DNA from: Syntrophaceae bacterium
Lineage (GTDB): Bacteria > Desulfobacterota > Syntrophia > Syntrophales > PHBD01
Length of the DNA: 64,000 nt
Assembly (NCBI GenBank): GCA_013177825.1
Contig: JABLXX010000001.1
Span: 334,936-398,935 of the forward strand
Direction of reading: 5' to 3'
A program made the position numbers and the translations under genes. The notes under the pieces were generated by a model. The model saw nothing but the letters and a program-made list of their open reading frames with translations, had not been told where the DNA came from and did no database searches. Shown piece by piece: positions 5,002 through 27,475 of this stretch; within the stretch, counting starts at the first letter, position 1, and every line of letters begins with the position of its first letter.

Positions 5002-6444
5002 CTATGGAATGAGGGTCAGCTGAATCGGATCCGGCGTCTCCAGGCAGTACTTGCCAAAGGTCTCGGGAGGGGTGACAGGGTAGTCCCCGGTATAGCAGGC
5101 AAGGCAGAAGCCGTCGGCCTCCATGCCCGTGGCTGCGACCATGCCCTCCACGGAGAGGTAGTGGACGGAATCGAGGCCCACGAAGCGGGCGATCTCTTCC
5201 ATCTCGGCCATTTCGGCGGCCAGAAGCTCCCCTTTTGAAGAGAAATCGATGCCGTACGGGCAGGGATGCCGGGTCGGCGGGCAGCTGACGGCCATGTGGA
5301 CCTCCAGCGCGCCGTTGTCCCGCAGGTTCCGGACCCGGTTGCGGCTGGTCGTGCCCCGGATGATGGAGTCCTCGACGATCAGGACGCGCTGTCCCGCGAT
5401 GAGCGGACGCACGGGGTTGAGTTTCACCCGTACGCCGAAGTCCCGGACCGTCTGGGTCGGCTGGATGAAGGTCCGGCCGACGTAGTGGTTGCGGATCATG
5501 CCCATCTCGAAGGGAATGCCGCTCCCTTCCGCGTAGCCCAGGGCCGCATAATTCCCCGAGTCCGGAAAGGGCATCACGAAATCCACGTCGGGCTGGTACT
5601 CCAGGGCCATCTGCCGGCCCAGGCGCTTGCGGCACAGATAGACGTTCTGGCCGAAGACCTGGCTGTCGGGGCGGGCGAAGTAGATCAGTTCGAAGATGCA
5701 GCGGGCCTGCCGGAGTTGTGGAAAGGGCATGATGCTGCGGGGGCCGTGTTCGTCGATGATGAGGATTTCCCCCGGGCGGATGTCCCGTACATACTGGGCT
5801 CCCACGAGGTCGAACGCGCATGTCTCCGAAGCGACGACCCAGCCGTCGCCGAGGCGGCCGAGGCACAGGGGGCGGAATCCCCGGGGGTCGCGGGCGGCGA
5901 TGACCATGTTCCGGGTCAGCATCACCAGGCTGTAGGCGCCTTCAACCCGCGACAGGGCGTGGGAAAGGGCCGCCTCGATTCCATCCCGGATGTGCCGGGC
6001 CATCAGGTGGACAATGATCTCCGTGTCCATGGTGGACTGGAAGATGGACCCCTGCATCTCGAGCTCGTGGCGGACGGCCTGGGCGTTCGTGAGGTTCCCG
6101 TTGTGGCCGATGGCGTAATACTCTTCCCCGTGGTGCACGAGAAAAGGCTGGGCGTTCGAGAGGGTCGACGAGCCGGTGGTTGAGTAGCGGACGTGCCCGA
6201 TGGCCAGGGACCCCGCCAGTTTCGCCAGGGTTCCCTCGTGGAAGACTTCGGAAACCAGCCCCATGCCCTTGTGTCCCCAGACCCGGCAGCCGTCGGCCAC
6301 CTTGATGCCGGCGCTTTCCTGACCCCGGTGCTGGAGGGCGAAGAGCCCGAAATAGGTGACCCGCGCTGCCTCCCGGTGTCCGTAGACGGCGAACACACCG
6401 CACTCTTCCCGGGGTTTCCCTTCGTGCCGGTCCGGCTGTCCCAT
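5002..6444 (-). CDS. purF: Amidophosphoribosyltransferase (first copy)
   Basis: A 480-residue PurF that makes 5-phosphoribosylamine from PRPP and glutamine, the first step of purine synthesis. The N-terminal nucleophile glutaminase has Cys15 (EECGVFAVYG) after a 14-residue propeptide, plus LQHRGQESAG. The PRPP loop reads IVEDSIIRGTTS. Cysteines in RCIFELIYFARPDS, CPPTRHPC and FCLACYTGDYP match the Fe-S-containing Bacillus-type enzyme. The ATG at 6444 was chosen because it gives a normal propeptide and has GGAAA upstream; longer in-frame extensions would run into carB. It follows carB by 16 bases and is the last gene of the carA-guaA-carB-purF operon. A divergent second copy lies at 28779-30161. 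Confidence 0.96.
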   Translation of the reverse strand: MGQPDRHEGKPREECGVFAVYGHREAARVTYFGLFALQHRGQESAGIKVADGCRVWGHKGMGLVSEVFHEGTLAKLAGSLAIGHVRYSTTGSSTLSNAQPFLVHHGEEYYAIGHNGNLTNAQAVRHELEMQGSIFQSTMDTEIIVHLMARHIRDGIEAALSHALSRVEGAYSLVMLTRNMVIAARDPRGFRPLCLGRLGDGWVVASETCAFDLVGAQYVRDIRPGEILIIDEHGPRSIMPFPQLRQARCIFELIYFARPDSQVFGQNVYLCRKRLGRQMALEYQPDVDFVMPFPDSGNYAALGYAEGSGIPFEMGMIRNHYVGRTFIQPTQTVRDFGVRVKLNPVRPLIAGQRVLIVEDSIIRGTTSRNRVRNLRDNGALEVHMAVSCPPTRHPCPYGIDFSSKGELLAAEMAEMEEIARFVGLDSVHYLSVEGMVAATGMEADGFCLACYTGDYPVTPPETFGKYCLETPDPIQLTLIP

Positions 6445-6460
6445 CCTGTTTCCTTTCACG

Positions 6461-9700
<3,240 letters not shown>

Positions 9701-12653: not shown

Positions 12654-14831
12654 TCAGCTGATGAAGAGCATCTCCCAGAATTTCGGCAGCGGCCACAGCT
12701 CGTCGTCCACCAGCATCTCCAGTTCGTCGACATACCCGCGCAACTCGTTCATTTTGGTTTTGACCCTGTCGCAGAGCATTTCCGCCTTTTTCTGCTCGTC
12801 GTGAACGGCCGAGGCCTTTTCGACCCCGGTCTGGATGGCCTGGTTGGTAGCGTAGACCTGGTTCACCAGCACCGCCAACTTTTTCAGCAGGTCCAGCTGG
12901 GCGCTGAGATCCGCGGACTTGCCCAGGGCCTCCCGCGTGCCCAGGATCGCCTCCGAGAGCCGATTCTGGTAGCTTGTTGCGGCGGGGAGGATCTGGCTCA
13001 GGCAGATGTTCTGCAGGCACTTTGCCTCGATGCTCAGGTCCTTGATGTATCTCTCGATATGGATCAGGTAGCGCGACTTGAGCTCCACGTGGGAGAGAAC
13101 CTTATATTTTTCAAATAGATCCAAAGCCTTGGGAGTGATCAGGGCCTTCAGGGCCACCGGCGTGGTCTTGTGGTTCGGCAGGCCCCGTTTCGCCGCTTCC
13201 TTTTCCCATTCCCGGCTGTAGTTGTCGCCGTTGAAGAGCACCGGCTTGATGTCCTTCAGCTCTTCCCGGATCACGGCCAGGACGCACTGGTTGACATTCC
13301 CGCTCTTGTCGCACCGTCCCTTGATTTTCTCGGCCAGGTAATCGAGGCTTTCCGCAACGATCGTGTTAAGGACCGTCGCCGGGAAAGAGATCGACTGGGC
13401 GGAGCCGACAGCCCGGAACTCGAACTTGTTGCCCGTGAAGGCGAAGGGCGATGTCCGGTTCCGGTCGGTGCTGTCCTTGCTCACGATGGGCAGCGAGGAG
13501 ATGCCGAGGTTGATGATCTCCTTGTCGGAGGCCTTCGACACCTTGCCGGCCTCAATGTCCCCGAGAATCCGGGTGAGCTGGTCACCGAGGAAGACGGAGA
13601 TGATCGCCGGCGGCGCTTCGTTTGCCCCCAGGCGATGATCGTTGGCGTAGGACCCCACGGAGGCCCTGATGATGTCTGCGTGCTTGTAGACGGCGCGGAT
13701 GACGGCGATCAGGAAGACCAGGAAGTGGATATTGTCCTCCGGCGTCTGCCCGGGATTCAGGAGGTTGTTCCCCTTGTTGTCGGAAAGCGACCAGTTCAGG
13801 TGCTTGCCCGAGCCGTTGATCCCCGCGAAGGGCTTCTCGTGGAGCAGGCAGGCCAGGCGATGCTTCTTCGCCACCTGCTGCATCGTGTCCATGACGATCT
13901 GGTTGTGGTCGACCGCCAGGTTGGCCTCCTCGAAGACCGGCGCCAGCTCGAACTGGCTGGGTGCCACCTCGTTGTGCCGGGTCTTGGCGGGAACGCCCAG
14001 CTTGAAGAGCTCTTCCTCCATGTCGTGCATGTATGAGGAAACGCGCTCCTTGATGCTGCCGAAATACTGGTCCTCCAGTTCCTGTCCCTTGGGCGGCGGG
14101 GCACCGACGATGGCCCGCCCTCCCATGACGAGATCGGGGCGCTTGTAGTAGTAGTCCGCGTCGATCAGGAAGTACTCCTGCTCCGGTCCCAGGGTCGCGA
14201 AAACGCCCCTCACGTCTTTGCTTCCGAGGAGCTTCAGGATGTTCAGGGCACTCTTGCTGACCGCCCGGTTCGACCGCAGGAGGGGGGTTTTCTTGTCGAG
14301 GGCCTGGCCGGTGAAGGAGATGAAGGCTGTCGGGATGCACAGGGTCGTCGAGATGCCGTTTCGCCGGATGAAGGCGGGGGAGGACATGTCCCAGGCCGTG
14401 TAGCCCCGGGCCTCGAAGGTCGCCCGGATGCCGCCGCTGGGGAAGCTCGAGGCGTCCGGCTCCCCCTGGACCAGCTGCTTGCCGGAGAAGCGCTCGATAA
14501 CCGAGCTGGGCCCGGTTACATCGATGAACGCATCGTGCTTTTCCGCCGTGATCCCCGTCATGGGCTGGAACCAGTGGGCGAAATGCGTCGCACCCTTCTC
14601 GATGGCCCACTTCGCCATGGCGTGGGCCACCGTGTTGGCGGTCTCGAGATCGAGAATGGTGTTTTCGTGGATGGCGTCGATGATCTTGTTGTAGGTGTCC
14701 CCGGGCAGCTTGTTCTTCATGACCCGGATGTTGAAGGTGTCCTCGCCGTAGTATTCCGATACGGGGCCGGACTTCTCCTTCGCCACCGGGTAACTCCTTT
14801 CGGCTGCGGTGATCGGGCATGTCTTTTTCAT
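12654..14831 (-). CDS. glnN: Glutamine synthetase, type III
   Basis: A 725-residue type III glutamine synthetase, far longer than the about 450-residue type I enzyme. It makes glutamine from glutamate, ammonia and ATP in the cytoplasm. Type III features include the N-terminal THFAHWFQPMTG stretch, LGPEQEYFLID, the ATP/glutamate region NGSGKHLNWSLSDN and a long helical C-terminus. The ATG at 14831 is preceded by GGAGG at 6 bases; upstream in-frame sequence is overlap with the previous gene. It is the last gene behind glutamate synthase (31 bases after it), so the two GOGAT/GS activities are made together. Control should come from the sigma-54 promoter at 19998-20013. Confidence 0.95.
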   Translation of the reverse strand: MKKTCPITAAERSYPVAKEKSGPVSEYYGEDTFNIRVMKNKLPGDTYNKIIDAIHENTILDLETANTVAHAMAKWAIEKGATHFAHWFQPMTGITAEKHDAFIDVTGPSSVIERFSGKQLVQGEPDASSFPSGGIRATFEARGYTAWDMSSPAFIRRNGISTTLCIPTAFISFTGQALDKKTPLLRSNRAVSKSALNILKLLGSKDVRGVFATLGPEQEYFLIDADYYYKRPDLVMGGRAIVGAPPPKGQELEDQYFGSIKERVSSYMHDMEEELFKLGVPAKTRHNEVAPSQFELAPVFEEANLAVDHNQIVMDTMQQVAKKHRLACLLHEKPFAGINGSGKHLNWSLSDNKGNNLLNPGQTPEDNIHFLVFLIAVIRAVYKHADIIRASVGSYANDHRLGANEAPPAIISVFLGDQLTRILGDIEAGKVSKASDKEIINLGISSLPIVSKDSTDRNRTSPFAFTGNKFEFRAVGSAQSISFPATVLNTIVAESLDYLAEKIKGRCDKSGNVNQCVLAVIREELKDIKPVLFNGDNYSREWEKEAAKRGLPNHKTTPVALKALITPKALDLFEKYKVLSHVELKSRYLIHIERYIKDLSIEAKCLQNICLSQILPAATSYQNRLSEAILGTREALGKSADLSAQLDLLKKLAVLVNQVYATNQAIQTGVEKASAVHDEQKKAEMLCDRVKTKMNELRGYVDELEMLVDDELWPLPKFWEMLFIS

Positions 14832-17211: not shown

Positions 17212-18846
17212 CTATATGACGTGGCTGATCCGGAGCCGCTCGGCCGCTGCCGCATCGGCGATGCCCAAGGCGTCGGACATGCCGATCGGCAAGGATGTCG
17301 AGCGGCCCAGGGGGGCCACAATCTTTTTCAGTTCCGTGTCGAAGCTCAGAAACGTGTCCACGACCCGCTGGGCGACCTGCTCCGGGTCCAGGCGACGGTA
17401 AAGGCGAGGATCCTGTGAGGTGATGCCCTTGGGACAGAGGCCGACGTTGCATATGTTGCAGCGGTCCGTCTCGGAGCCGAGACAACCCGCTGCGGCCTGC
17501 ATGATGTATTTGCCGATCTGGACCCCGCTGGCCCCCAGCATGATGAGGGCGGCGGCGTTGGCGGCGAGGTTTCCGTTCTTGCCGATGCCACCGCCGGCGA
17601 AGAGGGGAATTTCATTCTGTTTCCCGACTTTTACCAGGTTCAGGTAGGCGTCCCGGATGTTGCTGGCGATCGGATGGCCCATCGTGTTCATGGATACGTT
17701 GTAAGCGGCCCCGGTGCCGCCGTCCTCCCCGTCCATGGCGAGGCCTGCCGCGTAGGGATTCCGGGTCAGGTTGTTCAGAACGGCCAGGGTGGTGCTCGTG
17801 GCGGAGATCTTGGGATACACGGGGACCCGGAACCCCCAGGCCATGGCCATGGACTGGGTCATCTTCGCCACGGATTCCTCGATGGAGTATTTCGTCTGGT
17901 GCGTCGGGGGGCTGGGCAGGCTCACTCCCGTGGGGACGCCCCGGATGGCGGCAATCAGCCTGTTCACCTTGTACCACATCAGGAGGCCGCCGTCGCCGGG
18001 CTTCGCCCCCTGGCCGTACTTGATCTCGATGGCACAGGGGTCTTCCTTCATCTCCGGCAGGGCATGGACGATCTCGTCCCACCCGAAGTAGCCGCTGGCG
18101 ATCTGCAGGATGACGTATTTGAGGAACCGGGAGCGCAGAAGCCTTGGGGGGCAGCCCCCTTCGCCCGTGCACATGCGGACGGGCATGCCCATCTCCTCGT
18201 TCAGGTAGGCCACCCCCATCTGGAGTCCTTCCCACATATTCGGCGAGAGGGCCCCGAAGGACATGCTGCCGATGATGAGCGGGTAGATCTCCCGCACGGG
18301 GGGAATCCAGCCGTTGTTCTCGATGGTTCTGACCAGTTCCTCCGGGGGCAGGATCCGGCCCAGGAGGGTGCGTAGCTCGAAGTCGTGACGGCCGGCGTCC
18401 AGTGCCGGGTCCGTGAGCATGGAGATGCGGATGAACTTGATCTCGTCGAGCAGGCTCCGTGGATCGTTGCGCCTCCCGCCGCGCCGGCGTGGAACTCCGC
18501 CTGTGTTGTTATGGAAGCGGAGCTTGTCGGGTTCGCCGCTCCGGACGGGCCGGATGGCCCCGTTGGGGCAGACGAGGTCGCACATGCCGCAGCCGATGCA
18601 GGCGAAGGCCGGATCGGTCTTCTGACGGATGCCGTGATAGACGCCGAAGACGTTTCCCGGTTTTTCCGCAAGGCCCAGGTCGACTTTGACAACCCGCTTC
18701 CGGTGCACTCCCAGCTCGACGGCACGAACGGGGCAGACGGCCGTGCACCGGCCGCAGAGCGTGCATTTTTCCCTGCTCCAGGCAATCTGCCAGGGCAGAT
18801 CGGTCCGGCTCAGGGTGGAGGGTGTCAGCGTTCCCATTGATTCCAT
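17212..18846 (-). CDS. gltB: Glutamate synthase FMN-binding domain protein with N-terminal ferredoxin clusters
   Basis: A 544-residue central GOGAT subunit that aminates 2-oxoglutarate to glutamate at FMN. Two 4Fe-4S motifs open the protein (CTLCGRCTAVCPVRAV and CIGCGMCDLVCPNGAI). The flavin domain follows, with SFGALSPNMWEGL, GEGGCPPRL, IKYGQGAKPGDGG and DGEDGGTGAAY; the 3Fe-4S cysteines appear in CLGSETDRCNICNVGLCPKG. It contains neither the glutaminase nor the GXGXG domain; those are the flanking genes. The start overlaps the previous gene by 22 bases and has an excellent GGAGGAGGTG site. The order glutaminase, FMN domain, GXGXG+GltD rebuilds a complete glutamate synthase. Confidence 0.94.
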   Translation of the reverse strand: MESMGTLTPSTLSRTDLPWQIAWSREKCTLCGRCTAVCPVRAVELGVHRKRVVKVDLGLAEKPGNVFGVYHGIRQKTDPAFACIGCGMCDLVCPNGAIRPVRSGEPDKLRFHNNTGGVPRRRGGRRNDPRSLLDEIKFIRISMLTDPALDAGRHDFELRTLLGRILPPEELVRTIENNGWIPPVREIYPLIIGSMSFGALSPNMWEGLQMGVAYLNEEMGMPVRMCTGEGGCPPRLLRSRFLKYVILQIASGYFGWDEIVHALPEMKEDPCAIEIKYGQGAKPGDGGLLMWYKVNRLIAAIRGVPTGVSLPSPPTHQTKYSIEESVAKMTQSMAMAWGFRVPVYPKISATSTTLAVLNNLTRNPYAAGLAMDGEDGGTGAAYNVSMNTMGHPIASNIRDAYLNLVKVGKQNEIPLFAGGGIGKNGNLAANAAALIMLGASGVQIGKYIMQAAAGCLGSETDRCNICNVGLCPKGITSQDPRLYRRLDPEQVAQRVVDTFLSFDTELKKIVAPLGRSTSLPIGMSDALGIADAAAAERLRISHVI

Positions 18847-19940
18847 CGAATCACCTCCTCCCGACCGGGCGGGATCATGACCGTGTCGTATTTCATGGGT
18901 TGAATGTCGATGCTCTTGTTCCGGGCAGGGATCGCTGCGTCGAGGCCGCAGACCTCCGAGGAGAAGGCGAACAGGCCCGGGCTGCCGCCCACGATGCCGG
19001 GACGAAGCTTTTTGCTGTCCTGGACCATGAAGACGGTCTTATCGGGAAGGCAGCCGATCACGCAGTTCGGGCCGTCGATGATGAGAGGACGGCAGGCCTG
19101 CTTGATCTGTTTCAATTTTGTACCATTCGGATGGTGCCCGAGTTCCCCGTCCTTCAGGGGTGTGATGATGTGCTTGTACAGGTCGAGCCCGAGCCCGAGA
19201 TTCTTCTGGGTATAGTGCAGGATATGGGTGAACACCTCCGAATCGGACTGGTATCCTGTGTATCCCGCGTAATTCCGGGAGGTCAGGAACTCCCGGATGG
19301 GCACGAAGGCCGTGTTCTCGCCGTTGGTCATGGTCGCGAAGCCCTGGATGAAGAAAGGGTGGCAAGCGTAGATGTTGATGGCGTAATTGGTGTTCTGCCG
19401 TCCCTGGGCCAGGATCACCCGGGCCTGTAGCTCTTCGTGGTCGAGCCCCAGGTAATCGGCCAGCTCCATGGGATCCCCGACCTCCTTGATCATGATCACA
19501 TCGGGCCAGAAGCTGAAGACCAGCATGGAACCGTCGGCCTCTCCCATCTGGCGGAGGCGGAGACGGGTCAGCATCAGGCGATGCTCCCTCTCTTCCTGCG
19601 TCAGGGTGAGCCAGTCCGGCGGGTAGTCATAGGCGCGAATTACATAATTGTCCCGTTTCGGCGTTCCGGTTGGCGGAATCTGGGCCGGCCGGATGGAGAG
19701 CTTGTACTTGACGGTGAAGTCCAGGTCCATCAGGTACCGGTCCAGGGTGCGAAGCCCTTCGTTGGAAAAGATGCCCGAGAGAATGGGAGAGCCCCGGAAA
19801 CGCTCGAAGCTGCCCCCGAGGTCCGTCAGGAACAGGCCCATTCCGGAGCCGTCGTGCCCTTCCTTCATGACGTTCAGGGCATGGACGGCCGTCATGGGGG
19901 AGAGGGGCTCCCGGCTGGTTATGGCAAACAGACGGCACAT
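18825..19940 (-). CDS. Class II glutamine amidotransferase subunit of glutamate synthase
   Basis: A 371-residue N-terminal-nucleophile glutaminase. Removing the start Met exposes Cys2 (MCRLFAITSREP), and the DGSGMGLFLTD and YTGYQSDSEVFTHIL parts fit GltB-N/PurF-type amidotransferases. It should release ammonia from glutamine for the FMN subunit encoded next. The ATG at 19940 is set by the required Cys2 and by AAAGGA upstream; in-frame upstream sequence would bury the nucleophile. It is the first gene of the four-gene glutamate/glutamine operon (to 12654), 58 bases from a sigma-54-type promoter. The archaeal-like separate subunit is shorter than a full GltB glutaminase domain. Confidence 0.9.
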   Translation of the reverse strand: MCRLFAITSREPLSPMTAVHALNVMKEGHDGSGMGLFLTDLGGSFERFRGSPILSGIFSNEGLRTLDRYLMDLDFTVKYKLSIRPAQIPPTGTPKRDNYVIRAYDYPPDWLTLTQEEREHRLMLTRLRLRQMGEADGSMLVFSFWPDVIMIKEVGDPMELADYLGLDHEELQARVILAQGRQNTNYAINIYACHPFFIQGFATMTNGENTAFVPIREFLTSRNYAGYTGYQSDSEVFTHILHYTQKNLGLGLDLYKHIITPLKDGELGHHPNGTKLKQIKQACRPLIIDGPNCVIGCLPDKTVFMVQDSKKLRPGIVGGSPGLFAFSSEVCGLDAAIPARNKSIDIQPMKYDTVMIPPGREEVIRWNQWER

Positions 19941-19970
19941 AATGGATCCTTTCAATAATGATTCACCCCG

Positions 19971-19992
19971 CCAGGGAGCGAACGGTTCCTGG
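19971..19992. promoter_or_regulatory. Inverted repeat over the expected start point of the glutamate synthase operon
   Basis: CCAGG and CCTGG arms flank a 12-base centre just downstream of the -12 element at 19999-20000. A transcript starting about 12 bases past the -12 would begin inside this repeat, the place for a repressor to block a sigma-54 promoter. It does not match the GGAA-N6-TTCC operator known for archaeal NrpR, so the binding factor is unknown. Confidence 0.3.
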
Positions 19993-19997
19993 TAGAT

Positions 19998-20013
19998 AGC
20001 GAAAATTGTGCCA
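19998..20013 (-). promoter_or_regulatory. Sigma-54 promoter of the glutamate synthase-glutamine synthetase operon
   Basis: Read on the minus strand the site is TGGCACAATTTTCGCT, matching the consensus TGGCAC-N5-TTGCW with one change and keeping the essential GG-N10-GC spacing (GG at 20012-20011, GC at 20000-19999). It points at the glutaminase gene 58 bases away. A sigma-54-type activator gene ends 144 bases upstream of it. Confidence 0.8.
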
Positions 20014-20103
20014 CCATAAGCAGCGGACGAAGACATCAGCGGGTAAGGGACTCGCTGGTGATGGACCCCTGCGGGCTTCGCGCACCATGGCACAAAAATG
20101 TTT

Positions 20104-20121
20104 TTTTCGAAGGCTCGAAAA
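20104..20121. promoter_or_regulatory. Inverted repeat upstream of the sigma-54 promoter (enhancer or terminator)
   Basis: TTTTCGA and TCGAAAA flank AGGC about 91 bases upstream of the sigma-54 promoter and 36 bases past the activator stop codon. The distance suits an upstream activator site for a NifA/NtrC-like protein. It does not match TGT-N10-ACA or the NtrC site, and it could instead be a weak terminator of the activator gene. Confidence 0.4.
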
Positions 20122-20157
20122 TACAAAATTGTTGCTCACGGCCCCTTTCCCCCTTCT

Positions 20158-21717
20158 TCAGACCCCGTCCCGGATGCCCTCGCCCGATCCGTCGGCTCTG
20201 CGCCCCTTCTGCCGGTATTTCCGGGGATCGATGCCCAGTTTCTGGATCTTGTACTGGATGATCCGCTTCGTCGTTCCCAGGAGCCTCGCCGCCTGGCTCT
20301 GGTTACCGCTGGTCTCCTTGAGGGCGTCGACGATCAGTGTCCGTTCCTGGGCCTCGACGACGGAACTGAGCCGTCCCGAGTCCTTCTTCTCGCCGTCCCG
20401 GGTTTTGGTCTGCAAGGAGGGAGGAAGATGCATGATTTCAATGGAATCCGCCTCCGCGAGCAGGACGGCCCGCTCAATGCAGTTTTCCAGTTCCCGGACG
20501 TTGCCCGGCCAGGGATGGGCCAGGAAGGCCTCGACGACGGCCGTGGAGATCCGTTTCACCGGTTTTCCCAGTTCCTGCGAATACTTCAGTACGAAGTGAT
20601 CCGCCAGGAGGATGATGTCATTGCCCCGCTCCCGGAGTGGCGGCAGGTAGATCGGGAAGACGCTCAACCGGTAGTAGAGGTCGGACCGGAACTGGCCGCC
20701 GGCGATGCATTCCTCCAGGCGGCGGTTGGTGGCTGCGACGACCCGGGCGTTCGTGTGGATCAGCCGGGACGAGCCCAGGGGCTGGAACTGCTTTTCCTGG
20801 AGAACCCGCAGCAGTTTGGCCTGGGCGGCGGCGGAGAGTTCCGATACCTCGTCGAGGAAAATGGTGCCGTTGTTGGCCTCCTCGAAGCGGCCCCGGCGCT
20901 GGCGAAGCGCCCCCGTAAAGGCGCCCTTCTCGTGACCGAAAAGCTCGCTTTCCATGAGGGTATCGGGAATCGCGGCGCAGTTCACCTGGACCAGGGGGCC
21001 CTTGCCGTGGGGGCTGTTCATGTGGATCGCCCGGGCCACCAGCTCCTTCCCGGTTCCCGTCTCCCCCAGGATCAGGACCGTTGTGCCCGAGTCGGCCACA
21101 TGGCTGACGAGCCCGAAGACCTCCTGCATCCCCTTGGAATGCCCAATGAAATCAACGGAAGGAGACCGCCCCTGGTTGATGATCCGGCGAAGCCGCCGGT
21201 TTTCTTCTTCCAGCGCCAGGATGTGCACCGCCTTGGCAATCAACTCCGCCACGGCTGTAAGCATGGCAAGTTCACGATCCAGATCGATCACGGAACCGGC
21301 GCCCTTGTCGGCAGACAGGATGCCAACGACCCGGTTGTCGTACATGATGGGGACGCACAGGAACGCCAGCTCTTCGCGGTTCAGATAACGCCGGGCCCCC
21401 GTCCGGTCGAGAAACAGGGCCTCCCTGCCCAGGTTGGGGATCGCCATGGGACGGCCCGTTTGGGCCACCTTGCCGGTGATCCCCTCCCCCACACGGTAGG
21501 TGATCTCCAGGCCGTCGAGGTTGACGCCATGGGCGACGTCCAGCCACGCCTCTCCGGTGTCACGGTCGAGGAGCGAAATCATGCCGCGTTCCATCCCCAG
21601 CCGGACATTCATCTCGTTGAGGACGCGTTCGAGCTGATCCCGCAAATCCCAAGGCTGGGCCAGGATCTTGGCGATGGCATGGAGGGCCGCCAGTTCTTCG
21701 AAACTATGGATGCTCAC
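20158..21717 (-). CDS. NifA-like sigma-54-dependent transcriptional activator
   Basis: A 519-residue enhancer-binding protein with a GAF sensor domain (about residues 5-165), a sigma-54-interacting AAA+ domain and a Fis-type HTH. The AAA+ domain has Walker A GETGTGKELVARAI, the sigma-54 contact loop as ELFGHEKGAFTGA, and Walker B GTIFLDEVSEL. The HTH is NQSQAARLLGTTKRIIQYKI. There is no receiver domain, so it is not a classical NtrC. The start was set at the GTG at 21717, preceded by GGAGG at 6 bases; a TTG at 21768 has no such site. It sits just upstream of the glutamate synthase operon on the same strand and is the obvious candidate activator. The GAF ligand is unknown; the nifH-type genes that would support a true NifA are not in the window. 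Confidence 0.92.
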   Translation of the reverse strand: MSIHSFEELAALHAIAKILAQPWDLRDQLERVLNEMNVRLGMERGMISLLDRDTGEAWLDVAHGVNLDGLEITYRVGEGITGKVAQTGRPMAIPNLGREALFLDRTGARRYLNREELAFLCVPIMYDNRVVGILSADKGAGSVIDLDRELAMLTAVAELIAKAVHILALEEENRRLRRIINQGRSPSVDFIGHSKGMQEVFGLVSHVADSGTTVLILGETGTGKELVARAIHMNSPHGKGPLVQVNCAAIPDTLMESELFGHEKGAFTGALRQRRGRFEEANNGTIFLDEVSELSAAAQAKLLRVLQEKQFQPLGSSRLIHTNARVVAATNRRLEECIAGGQFRSDLYYRLSVFPIYLPPLRERGNDIILLADHFVLKYSQELGKPVKRISTAVVEAFLAHPWPGNVRELENCIERAVLLAEADSIEIMHLPPSLQTKTRDGEKKDSGRLSSVVEAQERTLIVDALKETSGNQSQAARLLGTTKRIIQYKIQKLGIDPRKYRQKGRRADGSGEGIRDGV

Positions 21718-21772
21718 AAGGTTCCTCCAGGTTGTTTCGGACCCGCTGTTGCGGATTCTGATGGACAAAAAT

Positions 21773-21789
21773 GAACAAAAAGTGTGCCA
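21773..21789 (-). promoter_or_regulatory. Near-match sigma-54 site upstream of the activator gene
   Basis: TGGCACACTTTTTGTTC read leftwards has a perfect -24 box, but the -12 GC is GT, which usually weakens such promoters strongly. A sigma-70-like TTGCCA/TATAGA pair with a 15-base spacer lies slightly further upstream. Either could drive the activator gene 56 bases downstream. Confidence 0.3.
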
Positions 21790-21902: not shown

Positions 21903-24494
21903 ATGGTAACTTTTTCCCGGGTAAGCACCGGTATCGAGGGGCTGGACAACATCCTCAACTATCTGCAGACGGGTGACAATGTCGTGCTCCAGGTGGATGA
22001 CATTGAGGACTACCGTTCCTTCGTCCTTCCTTTCGTCAAAACGGCCCTGGAGAATAAAGAACGGGTCGTCTACATGCGCTTCGCCCGCCATGCGCCGCTC
22101 CTGGAGGCCACCGGCCAGGTGACCATCTACAAGCTCAACGCCGACATGGGGTTCGAGTCTTTCTCCACGCAGGTCCATAACATCATTCGCCAGGAGGGGC
22201 AGGACGTCTTCTACGTTTTCGACTGTCTTTCGGATCTCCTCCATGCCTGGGCAACCGACCTCATGATCGGGAATTTCTTCGTTATTACATGTCCTTATCT
22301 CTTCGAGCTGAATACCGTTGCTTATTTCGCCATTCTCCGGAGCCGCCATTCCTTCAAGACGATCGCCCGGATCCGGGAGACCACCCAGGTGCTTCTGGAC
22401 ATCTATAACTACAAGGGAAAGCTCTGCGTTCACCCCCTCAAGGCCTGGCATCGCTATTCGCCGACCATGTTCCTTCCCCATATCCAGACCAACGGCCGCT
22501 TTACGCCGATCATGAACAGCGTGGACGCCACGAACCTGTTCTCTTTTCTGGCCCACAAGGGATCCACCGGTGCCGAGCGGAACCTGGATTACTGGGACCG
22601 CATCTTTTTGCAGGCCCGGGAACTTGCCCAGGATCCCAAGGCAGGGGGCGCAAAGAGCAGCATGGTAGAGCAGTTGTCCCGGGTCCTTATCGGCCGGGAA
22701 AAGCGGATGCTGACCCTGGCAAAGGACTTCTTCAACCTGGAGGATCTGCTGGAGATCGAGGAGCGCCTCATCGGCACGGGGTTCATCGGCGGAAAATCCG
22801 TCGGCATGCTTCTGGCCCGGAACATCCTCCGCCATGACCGGTCCTTCGACTGGAACGCCAAGCTGGAGCGTCACGACTCCTTCTATATCGGTTCCGATGT
22901 CTTTTATTCCTATATCGTCCAGAACGGCTGGTGGAAGCTCCTGATGGCCCAGAAGACCAAGGAAGGCTACTTCGAGAGCGCCGGGGAACTGAGAAATGTC
23001 ATGCTCCGGGGCGTTTTTCCTGATGAAGTCCGGGAGCAGTTCCAGCTAATGCTCGAGTACTTCGGACAGTCTCCCATCATCGTCCGCTCCAGCAGCCTCC
23101 TGGAGGACGCCTTCGGGAACGCCTTTGCCGGCAAGTATGAAAGCTATTTCTGCGCCAACCAGGGAACGCCGGAGCAGCGTTACGAGCACTTCGAGGAGGC
23201 GGTGCGCCGAATCTTCGCCAGCACCATGAACGTTGACGCCTTGACCTACCGGTTTCAGCGGGGCCTGGACCAGCAGGATGAGCAGATGGCCCTCCTGGTT
23301 CAGCGGGTGTCCGGATCATACAGGAAACACTATTTTTTCCCGGAACTGGCCGGTGTCGGGCTTTCCCACAACACCTTCGTCTGGAAACAGGGCCTGGATC
23401 CCAAGGCGGGGATGCTCCGGCTGGTCCTGGGGCTGGGAACCCGGGCGGTCAACCGGGTGGAAAACGATTATCCGCGTATCGTGGCCCTGGACGATCCCCT
23501 GCTGAAAGCCCATTCGGGCTCTGGTGACGCCCGGCGATTCTCCCAGCATGATGTGGATGCCCTCAACCTGGAGGAGAACCGCTTCCAGTCGCTGCCGCTG
23601 GAACAGGTGGTCCGGGAGGATCTCGACGCACGGCTGGATCTGGTGGGCACCCGGGACATGGAGGCCGCGGACCGTCTGCGGGCCCTGGGAAGGCCGGAAA
23701 CGGACAGCTGGATCCTGACCTTCGACGAACTCCTCTCGACGACGGACTTTTCCGATACCATGTCACGGATGCTCAAGACCCTGGAGCAAGTCTACGCGTA
23801 TCCGGTGGACATCGAGTTCACGGCCAACTTCAGCGCCCAGGGAAACCTGCAGGTCAACCTGCTTCAGTGCCGTCCGTTTCAGACGCGGGGCCAAACGGTC
23901 CAGGTGGACATCCCGGCGCGGATCCGGAAGGACCGGGTGCTCCTCCGCCAGGAAGGCAACTTCATGGGAGGAAGCGTCTCACAGCCCATTTCCCGTGTAA
24001 TTTACATCGATCCCCAAGGGTATACAAAATTGTCCCTCTCGGAAAAGTACGACGTGGCCCGCCTCATCGGCCGTCTCAACAAGCTGGTGGAGAACCGCGA
24101 GGAAACGCCCACGGCCCTCCTGGGACCGGGTCGCTGGGGAACGACGACGCCGGCCATGGGGGTTCCCGTGACCTTCTCGGAGATCAACAACATCACCGTC
24201 ATTGCCGAGATCGCCTACCGGGACGGGAGCCTGATTCCCGACCTCTCCTTTGGAACACATTTCTTCCAGGATCTCGTGGAGATGGAGATCTTCTACATGG
24301 CTATCTATCCTGAAAAGGAGAAAGTCTTCTTCAACACGGCCTGGATGGAGACCTTTCCGAACCGCCTGAAGGACCTGTCCCCCCGGGACGGTGCCTACGA
24401 AGAGGTGGTCCGGGTGTATGAAGTGCAGGAGCGCCATCTGAGGCTCATGTCGAATGTCGTGACACAGCAGTTGATCGTTTACGCCCGGGAATGA
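21903..24494 (+). CDS. Degenerate KaiC-like domain fused to PEP synthase-type ATP-binding domain
   Basis: An 863-residue protein. Residues 1-210 or so resemble the RecA/KaiC fold (STGIEGLDNILNYL), but the Walker A loop is replaced by TGDNVVLQVDDIEDY, with no GKT/S, so this half probably cannot hydrolyse ATP. From about residue 285 there is a pyruvate, phosphate dikinase/PEP synthase N-terminal domain: FIGGKSVGMLLARNIL, IIVRSSSLLEDAFGNAFAGK and LLQCRPFQTRG. The phosphohistidine swivel domain and the C-terminal PEP/pyruvate barrel are absent, so it cannot be a complete PEP synthase. The ATG follows GGGGG by 12 bases. It sits between the sigma-54 activator and gdhA and has its own terminator. 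A regulatory or phosphotransfer role is inferred only. Confidence 0.8.
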   Translation: MVTFSRVSTGIEGLDNILNYLQTGDNVVLQVDDIEDYRSFVLPFVKTALENKERVVYMRFARHAPLLEATGQVTIYKLNADMGFESFSTQVHNIIRQEGQDVFYVFDCLSDLLHAWATDLMIGNFFVITCPYLFELNTVAYFAILRSRHSFKTIARIRETTQVLLDIYNYKGKLCVHPLKAWHRYSPTMFLPHIQTNGRFTPIMNSVDATNLFSFLAHKGSTGAERNLDYWDRIFLQARELAQDPKAGGAKSSMVEQLSRVLIGREKRMLTLAKDFFNLEDLLEIEERLIGTGFIGGKSVGMLLARNILRHDRSFDWNAKLERHDSFYIGSDVFYSYIVQNGWWKLLMAQKTKEGYFESAGELRNVMLRGVFPDEVREQFQLMLEYFGQSPIIVRSSSLLEDAFGNAFAGKYESYFCANQGTPEQRYEHFEEAVRRIFASTMNVDALTYRFQRGLDQQDEQMALLVQRVSGSYRKHYFFPELAGVGLSHNTFVWKQGLDPKAGMLRLVLGLGTRAVNRVENDYPRIVALDDPLLKAHSGSGDARRFSQHDVDALNLEENRFQSLPLEQVVREDLDARLDLVGTRDMEAADRLRALGRPETDSWILTFDELLSTTDFSDTMSRMLKTLEQVYAYPVDIEFTANFSAQGNLQVNLLQCRPFQTRGQTVQVDIPARIRKDRVLLRQEGNFMGGSVSQPISRVIYIDPQGYTKLSLSEKYDVARLIGRLNKLVENREETPTALLGPGRWGTTTPAMGVPVTFSEINNITVIAEIAYRDGSLIPDLSFGTHFFQDLVEMEIFYMAIYPEKEKVFFNTAWMETFPNRLKDLSPRDGAYEEVVRVYEVQERHLRLMSNVVTQQLIVYARE

Positions 24495-24543
24495 GTCGGG
24501 TCGGCGATCGCGGTGAGCAGACCGGCGGGATGAGATAAAATAA

Positions 24544-24575
24544 GGACAGCCGCAAAAATCTGCGGCTGTCCTTTT
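24544..24575 (+). terminator. Rho-independent terminator between convergent genes
   Basis: Perfect 11-base arms GGACAGCCGCA and TGCGGCTGTCC (24544-24554, 24561-24571) with a six-base loop, followed by TTTT. It ends the plus-strand fusion gene and lies 24 bases past the convergent gdhA stop, so it may serve both directions. Confidence 0.9.
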
Positions 24576-24598: not shown

Positions 24599-25972
<1,374 letters not shown>

Positions 25973-27073
25973 TTAATGTTCTTGATTTTGTTTTCTACCC
26001 GGCGTTCCTTCCCGGGAGCGCCGCGGTTCTGCTTTTTTTCTGTTGGTCGGCCGGCCCTGGTGACGCTTCAGGATCTGGTCGAATGGTTCCATCTCCCCAT
26101 ACTCCATGACCGCGGACATGGCGCGGTTATCCACGTCCAGACCCGCTTCCCCGACGCAGGCCACCGGATTGAGGCCACCGATGAGAACGATTCCGACCCG
26201 GTTCATCTCCACGGGAGTCTGGCAGACGGGCTCGCTGATATCACCCTTCACGAGGATCCCGCCGATGTCCGCCCGGGCCAGCCCGGCCAGCCGCCTCTCC
26301 ATCAGGGGCAGGCAGGGTGCCGGGATCTCCCGGAAATTGGCCAGGATCATTCCTTCACCCTCGTCGACGACGCTCCGGACGGAGGTCATCTTCCCCCGGA
26401 TGAAGACCTCCGAGGGGTCCAGGGACGACCCGGAGTAATGAATCAGCTCCACAAACCGGAGAGGGTGGCGGTTTTTCACCTGCAGGATGCCGCCGAATTT
26501 GGAGTCCATGGGAATGCCGTTCTTCAGGAGAACGCCGTTGACCACGATGCTGCACACCGTGGCCAGCCCTACGCGCCCCTCGGGGACAAGGAGTCCGGCG
26601 AGGCGCTGTCCCGGCCCGGCCACGGCCACGCGCCGGCTGACCGTGTAACCCGCGTTGAACACCGGTTCCATGATCCGGAGTGCGTCGGGAAATGTCTCCT
26701 CCGACAGGAGCGAGATGTTCACCGGCAGGAGCCCCCGGCCGGTTTCCGGCTCGAACGTGGTCTGGAAGGCCAGAATCTCGATGCGGGAATTGGCCAGCCC
26801 CACCTTGTCACGGACCCGGGCTCTGCCGATCTCTTCGATGCCCTTGTCCGTAATGACTCGCCCATCCCGTTTGCCGATCAGCCTTGTCAGCCCCCGCTCG
26901 TCCATGAGCTTGAAGTGATAACGGACGGCCCGCTCGCTCGAGGGGAGACCGCGATCCTGCATCCGCCGCGAGATGAGACGCGAACCCACAGGCTGACCCG
27001 CCTCGTGAAGGATGCGGAGAATCATCAGGGTCTTGCGCTCGACATCGGCAGGTGTGGTGAACGGTGAAACCAT
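25973..27073 (-). CDS. nrpR: NrpR-type nitrogen-responsive transcriptional repressor (DUF128)
   Basis: A 366-residue protein with an N-terminal winged HTH (KTLMILRILHEAGQP to LTRLIGKRDGRVIT, about residues 13-75) and one NrpR regulatory domain of about 250 residues. That domain shows RGLLPVNISLL, GRVGLATVCSIVVNG, LRFVELIHYSGSSLDP and GGLNPVACVGEAG. In methanogens NrpR represses nitrogen genes and is released by 2-oxoglutarate; those proteins often carry two regulatory domains, this one has one. The tail is very basic. The ATG at 27073 has AAAGGATGG upstream; a start at 27175 would add 34 atypical residues and lacks a ribosome site. The direct gdhA linkage supports a nitrogen role. Confidence 0.87.
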   Translation of the reverse strand: MVSPFTTPADVERKTLMILRILHEAGQPVGSRLISRRMQDRGLPSSERAVRYHFKLMDERGLTRLIGKRDGRVITDKGIEEIGRARVRDKVGLANSRIEILAFQTTFEPETGRGLLPVNISLLSEETFPDALRIMEPVFNAGYTVSRRVAVAGPGQRLAGLLVPEGRVGLATVCSIVVNGVLLKNGIPMDSKFGGILQVKNRHPLRFVELIHYSGSSLDPSEVFIRGKMTSVRSVVDEGEGMILANFREIPAPCLPLMERRLAGLARADIGGILVKGDISEPVCQTPVEMNRVGIVLIGGLNPVACVGEAGLDVDNRAMSAVMEYGEMEPFDQILKRHQGRPTNRKKAEPRRSREGTPGRKQNQEH

Positions 27074-27475
27074 CGGCAATCGGCCATCCTTTGCCGATGC
27101 ACCTACACGGGATGCGACAATCTTGTCAACACAAAATTGGACCTTTTCGTTTGGCCCTGTGTCTTCTTCATCCATGGGAACCCACCGTCCGGACGGCGCG
27201 TCCGACAGGACATCGTCCGCTCCATCCGGGGCCCGGCCGGCGAACCCGGCCGGGTCTTAAGGCCGCGCATCCCGGGTGAAGGAAGGGCAACCCGAAAACG
27301 GGATCGTCCGGATTGCGAAACCCCTTTGCTTCTGCTACGCTGGCGCGGATTTTCGAGGGTAAGATTGCCGCAGCGAGGGGCAAAAGATCTTTTATGTCTC
27401 CGGCGTCAACGGATGCCGCATAACCGGAAAACCCGGACTGCAGGGCGGGTTTTCCCCTGTAAGGAGAGAAGGAAA
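27074..27475. other. Intergenic region with several hairpins, leader of the aminopeptidase gene
   Basis: A 402-base gap between divergent genes with no convincing gene. A minus-strand TTGACA near 27130 could be the nrpR -35 box. Inverted repeats include CCCGGCCGG/CCGGCCGGG (27232-27240, 27246-27254), the palindrome AAAAGATCTTTT (27382-27393) and GGAAAACCCG/CGGGTTTTCC (27426-27435, 27446-27455) directly before the aminopeptidase ribosome site. The last three lie on the side of the plus-strand gene and look like a structured leader. I could not match it to a known riboswitch. Confidence 0.5.

Follow-up and report, generated by a model that had tools for sequence, protein, structure and literature searches.

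The closest described counterpart of the protein treated here is VadK (Rv1127c) of Mycobacterium, a truncated pyruvate phosphate dikinase (PPDK) composed of an ATP-grasp and a His domain, which autophosphorylates at His422. VadK is reported to interact with enzymes of the methylcitrate cycle and is proposed to control them (PMC13400623). Inactivated KaiC domains (iKaiC) are described in archaeal signalling proteins (PMC5847659). The gene analysed here was found in 64,000 nucleotides of contig JABLXX010000001.1 (positions 334,936 to 398,935, assembly GCA_013177825.1) of a Syntrophaceae bacterium; this whole stretch is called the window. It encodes an 863-residue protein in which a KaiC-fold domain without a phosphate loop (pseudo-KaiC) precedes an ATP-grasp domain of the PPDK and phosphoenolpyruvate (PEP) synthase type and a C-terminal domain with an invariant histidine. 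It adjoins gdhA, the gene for an NADP-type glutamate dehydrogenase (GDH). The best reading, for which chemistry, ligand and target site are inferred, is a PPDK-derived kinase module that is coupled to a sensor and acts on GDH or ammonia assimilation in analogy to mycobacterial VadK. With a probability of about 0.42, the protein is a regulatory kinase that a sensor couples to ammonia assimilation and that has GDH as its main partner.

Going by the published description of VadK, the window protein shares with it a PPDK ATP-grasp, a His-bearing domain that would serve phosphate transfer and a proposed role as regulator of metabolic enzymes. It differs in that the histidine of VadK was located by overlay on PPDK structures, that no KaiC or receiver sensor is mentioned for VadK in the accessible text and that the partner of VadK is the methylcitrate cycle and not GDH (PMC13400623). 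PEP synthase and PPDK have the ATP-grasp fold and the ATP-site residues in common with the window protein. It lacks their PEP/pyruvate domain, however, showed no Pfam match to the phosphohistidine domain of PEP-utilizers (PF00391) and carries an extra N-terminal domain. Rifampin phosphotransferase and HpeHI were among the best structural matches to residues 259-665, but the window protein had no rifampin-binding-domain match and no homologous swivel sequence was found. The N-terminus has the fold of KaiC and iKaiC, from which the protein is set apart by its fusion to an ATP-grasp domain and its GDH linkage; no such fusion is noted in the available sections of PMC5847659. A Bacteroidota relative adjoining gdhA (WP_041525632.1) bears the NCBI label 'PEP/pyruvate-binding domain-containing protein', which is generic and states no function.

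Domain architecture and conservation

The open reading frame (ORF) starts with ATG and runs through 863 codons with no internal stops. PPDK_N (PF01326) was the sole Pfam match above its cut-off, covering residues 295-675 with an E value of 3.2e-52 and 178.3 bits against a cut-off of 27. No NCBIfam model came near its cut-off for the protein, and none was reached for four relatives. A second gene copy was not found in the source genome, where the sole other match was a PEP-synthase-like ORF (E 8.5e-5). The whole protein was modelled with AlphaFold on an alignment of 54 sequences, reaching a predicted local distance difference test score (pLDDT) of 86.8 and a predicted template modelling score (pTM) of 0.85.

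Residues 1-218 of this model matched KaiC chains in VIA with Z scores of 18.5-21.7 across 186-209 residues. For KaiC 7s65_B, Z was 21.7 with a root mean square deviation (rmsd) of 2.6 over 192 aligned residues, and Foldseek gave E 2.0e-10. A Walker A P-loop is absent from the domain and GDNVV occupies its place. D107, at a Walker-B-like strand, was present in 54/54 relatives. Based on the model, the domain is assigned to the KaiC fold only and not as a KaiC ATPase. Solved-structure sequences searched with the N-terminus gave chance-level matches only. Membership in MEDS (PF14417) was rejected with 13.2 bits against a cut-off of 29.8 (E 0.081), yet the first beta-alpha-beta unit showed weak local profile similarity to it (hhalign E 1.6e-4 for one comparison, probability 50, residues 26-64).

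The ATP-grasp domain, residues 259-665, matched rifampin phosphotransferase 5hv1 with a VIA Z of 27.2 (rmsd 2.8, 296 aligned) and HpeI 9goj with Z 19.0. Judged by their first and last residues, three VIA alignments extend into the C-terminal domain: PEP synthase 2ols (model 259-863 to chain 13-467), 5hv3 (model 224-841) and 5hv2 (model 228-862). The ATP-site residues K298, R395, E401, D402, D636, E638, Q655 and R657 agree with five PEP synthases. All eight are kept in 20 other cores, meaning the ATP-grasp together with the C-terminal domain, except that D636 is D or E. On residue grounds, the ATP half-reaction is thus possible.

The C-terminal domain, residues 664-863, folded alone with pLDDT 90.9 and pTM 0.90. 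Its motifs G-P-x-R-W-G and S-x-G-[ST]-H-F-F were found in 21/21 cores, down to 23% identity with the window core. In the whole-protein model, H786 of the second motif is the first residue of helix 786-793, and the elements follow in the order strands, helix 712-727, strand 737-743, short helix, strand 766-770, loop, helix from H786 and strand 797-801. We take this order to resemble the phosphohistidine domain of PPDK, with H786 in the position of the catalytic His. Structural matches to PPDK 5jvj, 5jvl, 5lu4 and 2r82 were weak (VIA Z 5.1, 4.8, 4.6 and 4.4, PPDK residues 373-510, rmsd 3.4-4.0); the one to 5jvj covered 118 residues within 374-509 at rmsd 3.4. CCT apical domains made up most of the top VIA matches, reaching Z 5.8, and PPDK, RraA, kynurenine formamidase and PA domains ranked below. 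Several of these presumably belong to the same swivelling beta/beta/alpha fold class. PPDK was not among the 50 Foldseek matches listed for the domain alone, and a search of solved-structure sequences with it gave chance-level matches only. An alignment by mafft that placed GPGRWG on the GGRTCHAA motif was not trusted, since the model lacks a helix after GPGRWG. The ORF stops after this 200-residue domain with no further Pfam match, and the PEP/pyruvate barrel is absent. Taken together, the model suggests that residues 664-863 are likely, though unproven, to be a swivel domain.

These results bear on an original prediction made from the sequence of the window, which had described a KaiC-like N-terminal half without a phosphate loop and a C-terminal half keeping the PPDK ATP-grasp. 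Both halves were recovered, and Foldseek and VIA agreed on a KaiC fold in residues 1-210, the range for which it had been proposed. The supposed loss of the phosphohistidine and PEP domains was confirmed for the PEP/pyruvate domain but not for the phosphohistidine domain, as a distinct domain with an invariant His and a weak PPDK fold match is present, albeit with no PF00391 match. The claim that neither half could perform its family's reaction was likewise not confirmed, given the eight ATP-site residues shared with five PEP synthases. As far as the sequence tells, the PPDK part is not gutted; its checked ATP-site residues are complete and a conserved His-bearing domain follows. A frameshift, considered at that time as a possible cause of the missing domains, left no sign, and frameshift or decay was ruled out by conserved full-length relatives in 28/60 genomes and in the 80 named-genome loci described below.

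In the search for relatives, 31/60 genomes matched at E <= 1e-10, the window's own genome included. The protein was full or nearly full length in 28 of them, in pieces at contig ends in G012 and G008, and G029 matched via a variant only. A 15-sequence profile matched 80/297 genomes of the phylum Desulfobacterota at E <= 1e-20, some with a different N-terminus. With a core profile at E <= 1e-30, 22/199 Bacillota, 26/149 Planctomycetota and just 2/299 Pseudomonadota genomes were found. Named genomes yielded 577 relatives, of which the best 80 were retained; all counts of 80 loci refer to these. They matched at 47-78% in the best segment, a few being cut by contig ends. Their titles comprised Desulfobacterota-type groups, Omnitrophota, Planctomycetes, Bacillota, Spirochaetes, Gammaproteobacteria, two archaea and others; single taxon labels need caution because the loci are mostly metagenome-assembled genomes (MAGs). 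Regions were fetched for part of the matches, namely 21/23 Bacillota places, 22/32 Planctomycetota places and about 70 regions of the phylum profile search. No relative was detected in viral contigs scanned by the patterns used. Mean column identity was 59% among 54 aligned sequences. Judging by these alignments, the protein is old and intact, one branch of a family spanning several phyla and not a local oddity.

Linkage to glutamate dehydrogenase and exchange of N-termini

GDH is a main entry point of ammonia into metabolism. Regions were picked by the core and not by GDH, and GDH was counted by tblastn within 3 kb. Among pseudo-KaiC regions from Desulfobacterota it was found in 32/40, and further in 16/18 and 11/14 regions with other N-termini and in 30/80 named-genome loci, 56 of which had 1.5 kb on both sides. 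These values supersede an earlier count with a crude gene caller, which lost five cores and gave GDH within two genes in 38/58 and 10/14 regions. As a control, 20 PEP-synthase/PPDK regions of the window's order were examined. None had GDH within 3 kb or anywhere in the region, a further difference of these enzymes from the window protein; 14 of the regions were in genomes with GDH, 4 in genomes without and 2 in one untested genome. The comparison of 32/40 with 0/20 gave a Fisher p of 7.4e-10, with the regions treated as independent though they are not. The region sets overlap, with some genomes in more than one set and two regions from one genome (G277). Within the window's own order, the core had GDH within 3 kb in 10/28 genomes, as judged from the match positions, compared to 0/20 controls (p 0.003). 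If a genome of this size held a single GDH, chance would bring it within 3 kb of a given gene in about 0.2% of cases.

In other phyla, GDH was within 3 kb in 13/20 regions (19 Planctomycetota and one Pseudomonadota), in 7/20 Bacillota regions and in 5/12 regions of a mixed set. For Bacteroidota, it adjoined the core in 2/3 records, one by deposited annotation. In this record, from Parabacteroides distasonis, annotated gdhA is divergent to a 'PEP/pyruvate-binding domain-containing protein'. The Phocaeicola record showed the same arrangement by tblastn, and the Prevotella record had no GDH nearby.

Altogether, 104/181 distinct cores had GDH within 3 kb, identical cores being counted once and 10 being skipped by the motif/length filter. 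Where 4 kb was available on both sides, GDH was present for 73/117 cores. The linked GDH was upstream on the same strand in 48 cases, downstream on the same strand in 27, downstream on the opposite strand in 24 and upstream on the opposite strand in 5. On the tree, these arrangements required 21 parsimony changes versus a mean of 47.8 with shuffled labels. Four arrangements and 21 changes suggest that GDH closeness was kept through repeated rearrangement. Same-strand spacing between core and GDH was often close in the variants, with gaps of -115 to about 60 bp according to the crude gene caller. In the 80 loci, GDH was the commonest neighbour family (28/80), the next family reaching 10. Other neighbours were glutamate-synthase clusters (10, 5 and 3), NrpR (7), Amt (6), CarB (6), PII (4), CarA (4) and GlnA (3).

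Co-occurrence pointed in the same direction. In the window's order, an ELFV-type dehydrogenase was present in 27/28 genomes with the protein, all but G023, versus 11/22 without (Fisher p 1.7e-4). This set comprised 28 of 31 positives, leaving out two in pieces and one variant, and 22 of 29 negatives, leaving out seven of 68-88% completeness. Among 14 further genomes without the protein elsewhere in the phylum, 6 had GDH. Genomes with GDH may be overcounted because the searched family includes related amino-acid dehydrogenases, and individual cases may be distorted by errors in the binning of MAGs. The dependence seems one-sided: the protein relies on GDH more than GDH does on it.

The core is combined with different N-termini: pseudo-KaiC, about 150 helical residues, about 300 residues that we label GAF-like and that have no Pfam match, or receiver domains, and cores with little N-terminus also exist. 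PF00072 was detected twice in L148 (E 8.5e-10) and was slightly below its cut-off in L146. Among cores with a neighbouring GDH, the N-terminal type largely followed the GDH class: 12/13 double-receiver and 57/64 pseudo-KaiC cores were next to the gdhA class, and 8/8 GAF-like and 13/13 helical cores were next to two other classes. In some GAF-like members a nucleotidyltransferase-like domain is added, which in L151 matched NTP_transf_2 at E 2.4e-9. It is located C-terminally in L151:9016-12228 (-), identified by Pfam, and in L153:7733-10942 (+), identified by alignment. Its sequence makes a second modifying activity possible.

The placement of the gene between a nitrogen activator and gdhA was confirmed. 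The original prediction of a new ATP- or pyruvate-linked regulator or kinase stands in its ATP-linked part, which the neighbours tie to nitrogen metabolism; no finding of this analysis points to pyruvate. The neighbour survey that it had suggested supports the nitrogen tie more strongly than a single locus could, and the link to GDH and ammonia assimilation is supported. The observation was thus largely right and its interpretation partly supported.

Several further arrangements were observed. In the Parabacteroides locus L352, a single core of the double-receiver type has two NADP-type GDH genes (5181-6515 and 13139-14473) no more than 5 kb away. In L315 (G909, contig C345), a tandem pair of cores lies on one contig with GDH 123 bases off. 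Two regulators, at L141:4574-5878 (-) and L142:14495-15796 (-), are encoded apart from the helical-type cores of the same regions and have a degenerate N-terminus resembling KaiC, with 28-29% identity to residues 5-192; the one in L141 also has HTH_3 and cupin domains.

Proposed mechanism and competing explanations

A constant core with exchanged sensors and a constant partner argues for regulation of GDH by the core. In the proposed mechanism, the pseudo-KaiC domain would sense a ligand or partner rather than hydrolyse ATP, and this sensing would gate the ATP-grasp. The ATP-grasp would then phosphorylate His786 on the C-terminal domain, as in PPDK, rifampin phosphotransferase and VadK. The phosphorylated domain may bind GDH or hand the phosphate over, altering GDH activity. 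The GDH protein is the simplest target because members of the family share no substrate domain. We know of no dedicated protein regulator of GDH in most bacteria, and a literature search, mostly without subscription papers, yielded no publication that, judged by its listing, connects a protein of the PPDK type with GDH. At a little short of even odds, the proteins constitute an undescribed family of GDH regulators in Desulfobacterota, Planctomycetota, Bacillota, Bacteroidota and others, with a PPDK-derived kinase core and a cryptic His-bearing swivel domain. The interchangeable sensors of such a family, held just as tentatively, would be pseudo-KaiC, double receiver, GAF-like and helical domains, some with an added nucleotidyltransferase. 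If this is true, a kinase module that followed GDH across several phyla, exchanging its sensor and keeping its partner, would represent a general control device, and the step from PPDK-type ATP-grasp enzyme to regulatory kinase would have been taken repeatedly, with VadK as the case already in print. Even with a different chemistry, the GDH linkage is a first functional lead for a large, generically named family.

A number of results weigh against a GDH-regulating kinase. The fold match of the C-terminal domain was weak, with a VIA Z of at most 5.8 for any domain, no Foldseek match to residues 664-863 at E <= 0.001 (best 0.045) and hhalign probabilities of 0.5 and 0.4 per cent against PF00391. 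In the window's order, GDH was on a different contig from the core in 15/28 genomes and on the same contig but farther away in 2. In the complete set, 77/181 cores were without GDH within 3 kb; contig ends are no explanation for the 44 of these with 4 kb on both sides. None of ten short-form Bacillota cores (open frames of 572-773 amino acids) had GDH in the regions fetched, and a different role is likely for them. Genome G023 has the protein and no detectable GDH. At the thresholds used, no residue separated 78 partnered from 11 unpartnered GDHs of the gdhA class, hence no target site is visible. Adjacency, finally, proves neither physical interaction nor kinase activity. The short-form cores (L301-L310) mostly have little N-terminal sensor and stand among mixed neighbours such as VTT, SLH/DUF4901 and cation efflux.

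The core could instead be a metabolic dikinase phosphorylating a small molecule tied to GDH, such as 2-oxoglutarate, glutamate, an ammonia-derived compound or a signalling nucleotide. To our knowledge, all described relatives of this ATP-grasp except VadK use small molecules as substrates; the best structural matches are rifampin phosphotransferase and PEP synthase, and the neighbours include further ammonia and glutamine enzymes. The N-terminal domain would then provide the substrate site or control it, on the pattern of PEP synthase, rifampin phosphotransferase and HpeHI; the last of these shows that ATP-grasp and swivel parts can be separate proteins (PMC12167813). A metabolic dikinase appears somewhat unlikely, given that a family-wide substrate domain is missing, that the N-terminus was swapped for unrelated domains while the GDH link persisted and that cores with little N-terminus exist. 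Another explanation dispenses with phosphorylation: the ATP-grasp would bind ATP or ADP only, and the C-terminal domain would bind GDH and tune it to the energy state. GDHs are commonly controlled by nucleotides, the KaiC part has no P-loop and a phosphohistidine domain could not be demonstrated at the C-terminus. However, the checked ATP-site residues and His786 vary little or not at all even among cores of 23% identity, beyond the needs of binding alone, which makes a non-catalytic sensor unlikely.

The GDH link itself could reflect a shared nitrogen regulon, the protein serving ammonia assimilation generally with no direct role at GDH. Some GDH-less regions carry PII, Amt, glutamate synthase, GlnA or carbamoyl-phosphate synthase (CarB), and G023 does without GDH altogether. 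Set against the rank of GDH as the commonest neighbour family, the tracking of GDH class by N-terminal type and the frequent close same-strand spacing in the variants, this explanation is quite improbable. Decay or a frameshift in a PEP synthase, or a fusion by chance, would account for the absent PEP/pyruvate domain, but the probability of this is negligible in view of the same full-length architecture in many phyla, the lack of internal stops and the 59% column identity. A sensor-coupled kinase directed at GDH is the reading preferred here, at less than even odds.

The locus and its neighbouring genes

Features of the gene and its surroundings are listed in Table 1.

Table 1. Positions of domains, motifs and neighbouring genes in the window
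Feature	Position	Strand	Basis
Pseudo-KaiC, ATP-grasp and C-terminal His domain gene	21903..24494	+	Single 863-aa ORF, full-length relatives
KaiC-fold domain without Walker A, residues 1-218	21903..22556	+	VIA, Foldseek
G24-D25-N26-V27-V28 in P-loop position	21972..21986	+	G24, D25, N26, V28 in 54/54 relatives; V27 in 53/54
PPDK/PEP-synthase-type ATP-grasp, residues 259-665	22677..23897	+	PPDK_N, VIA
K298, ATP-site lysine of GGK motif	22794..22796	+	54/54 relatives; also 20 other cores and 5 PEP synthases
R395 of VRSSS motif	23085..23087	+	Conserved across cores
D636-x-E638 to Q655-x-R657, metal/ATP-site end of ATP-grasp	23808..23873	+	E638, Q655, R657 in 20/20 other cores and 5 PEP synthases
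Proposed cryptic swivel (phosphohistidine-like) domain, residues 664-863	23892..24491	+	Own model, VIA
GPGRWG motif, residues 741-746	24123..24140	+	G741, P742, G743, R744, G746 in 54/54; W745 in 53/54
H786 of SFGTHFF, candidate phosphorylated His	24258..24260	+	54/54 relatives; 21/21 cores across N-terminal variants
NifA-like GAF/sigma54 activator, divergent neighbour	20158..21768	-	NCBIfam NifA score 471, below cut-off 529
14-pair stem, terminator-like, between the gene and gdhA	24542..24573	.	Stem scan
gdhA, NADP-type GDH, convergent neighbour, proposed partner	24599..25954	-	Family match and linkage surveys
NrpR-type nitrogen regulator, adjoining gdhA	25973..27175	-	PF01995 E 5.9e-79

The stem scan as a whole was not above shuffles, with 2 terminator-like stems found versus a shuffle mean of 3.7. 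Sigma54-like patterns occurred 4 times in the window (2.82 expected) and NrpR-like operators 5 times (1.98 expected), counts at or slightly over the chance level, none being convincing for the pseudo-KaiC/PPDK gene. One sigma54-like pattern, TGGCACACTTTTTGT at 21775-21789 (-), is a short distance upstream of the NifA-like gene. NrpR relatives were also seen near cores elsewhere, for example in L041, L046, L049 and L054. Glutamate-synthase-type genes also surround the gene in the window. A split glutamate synthase is located at 17212-20126 (-), in which ferredoxin-type clusters are fused to the synthase domain (17212-18846) and the adjoining protein (18825-20126) showed a weak GATase_6 match only.

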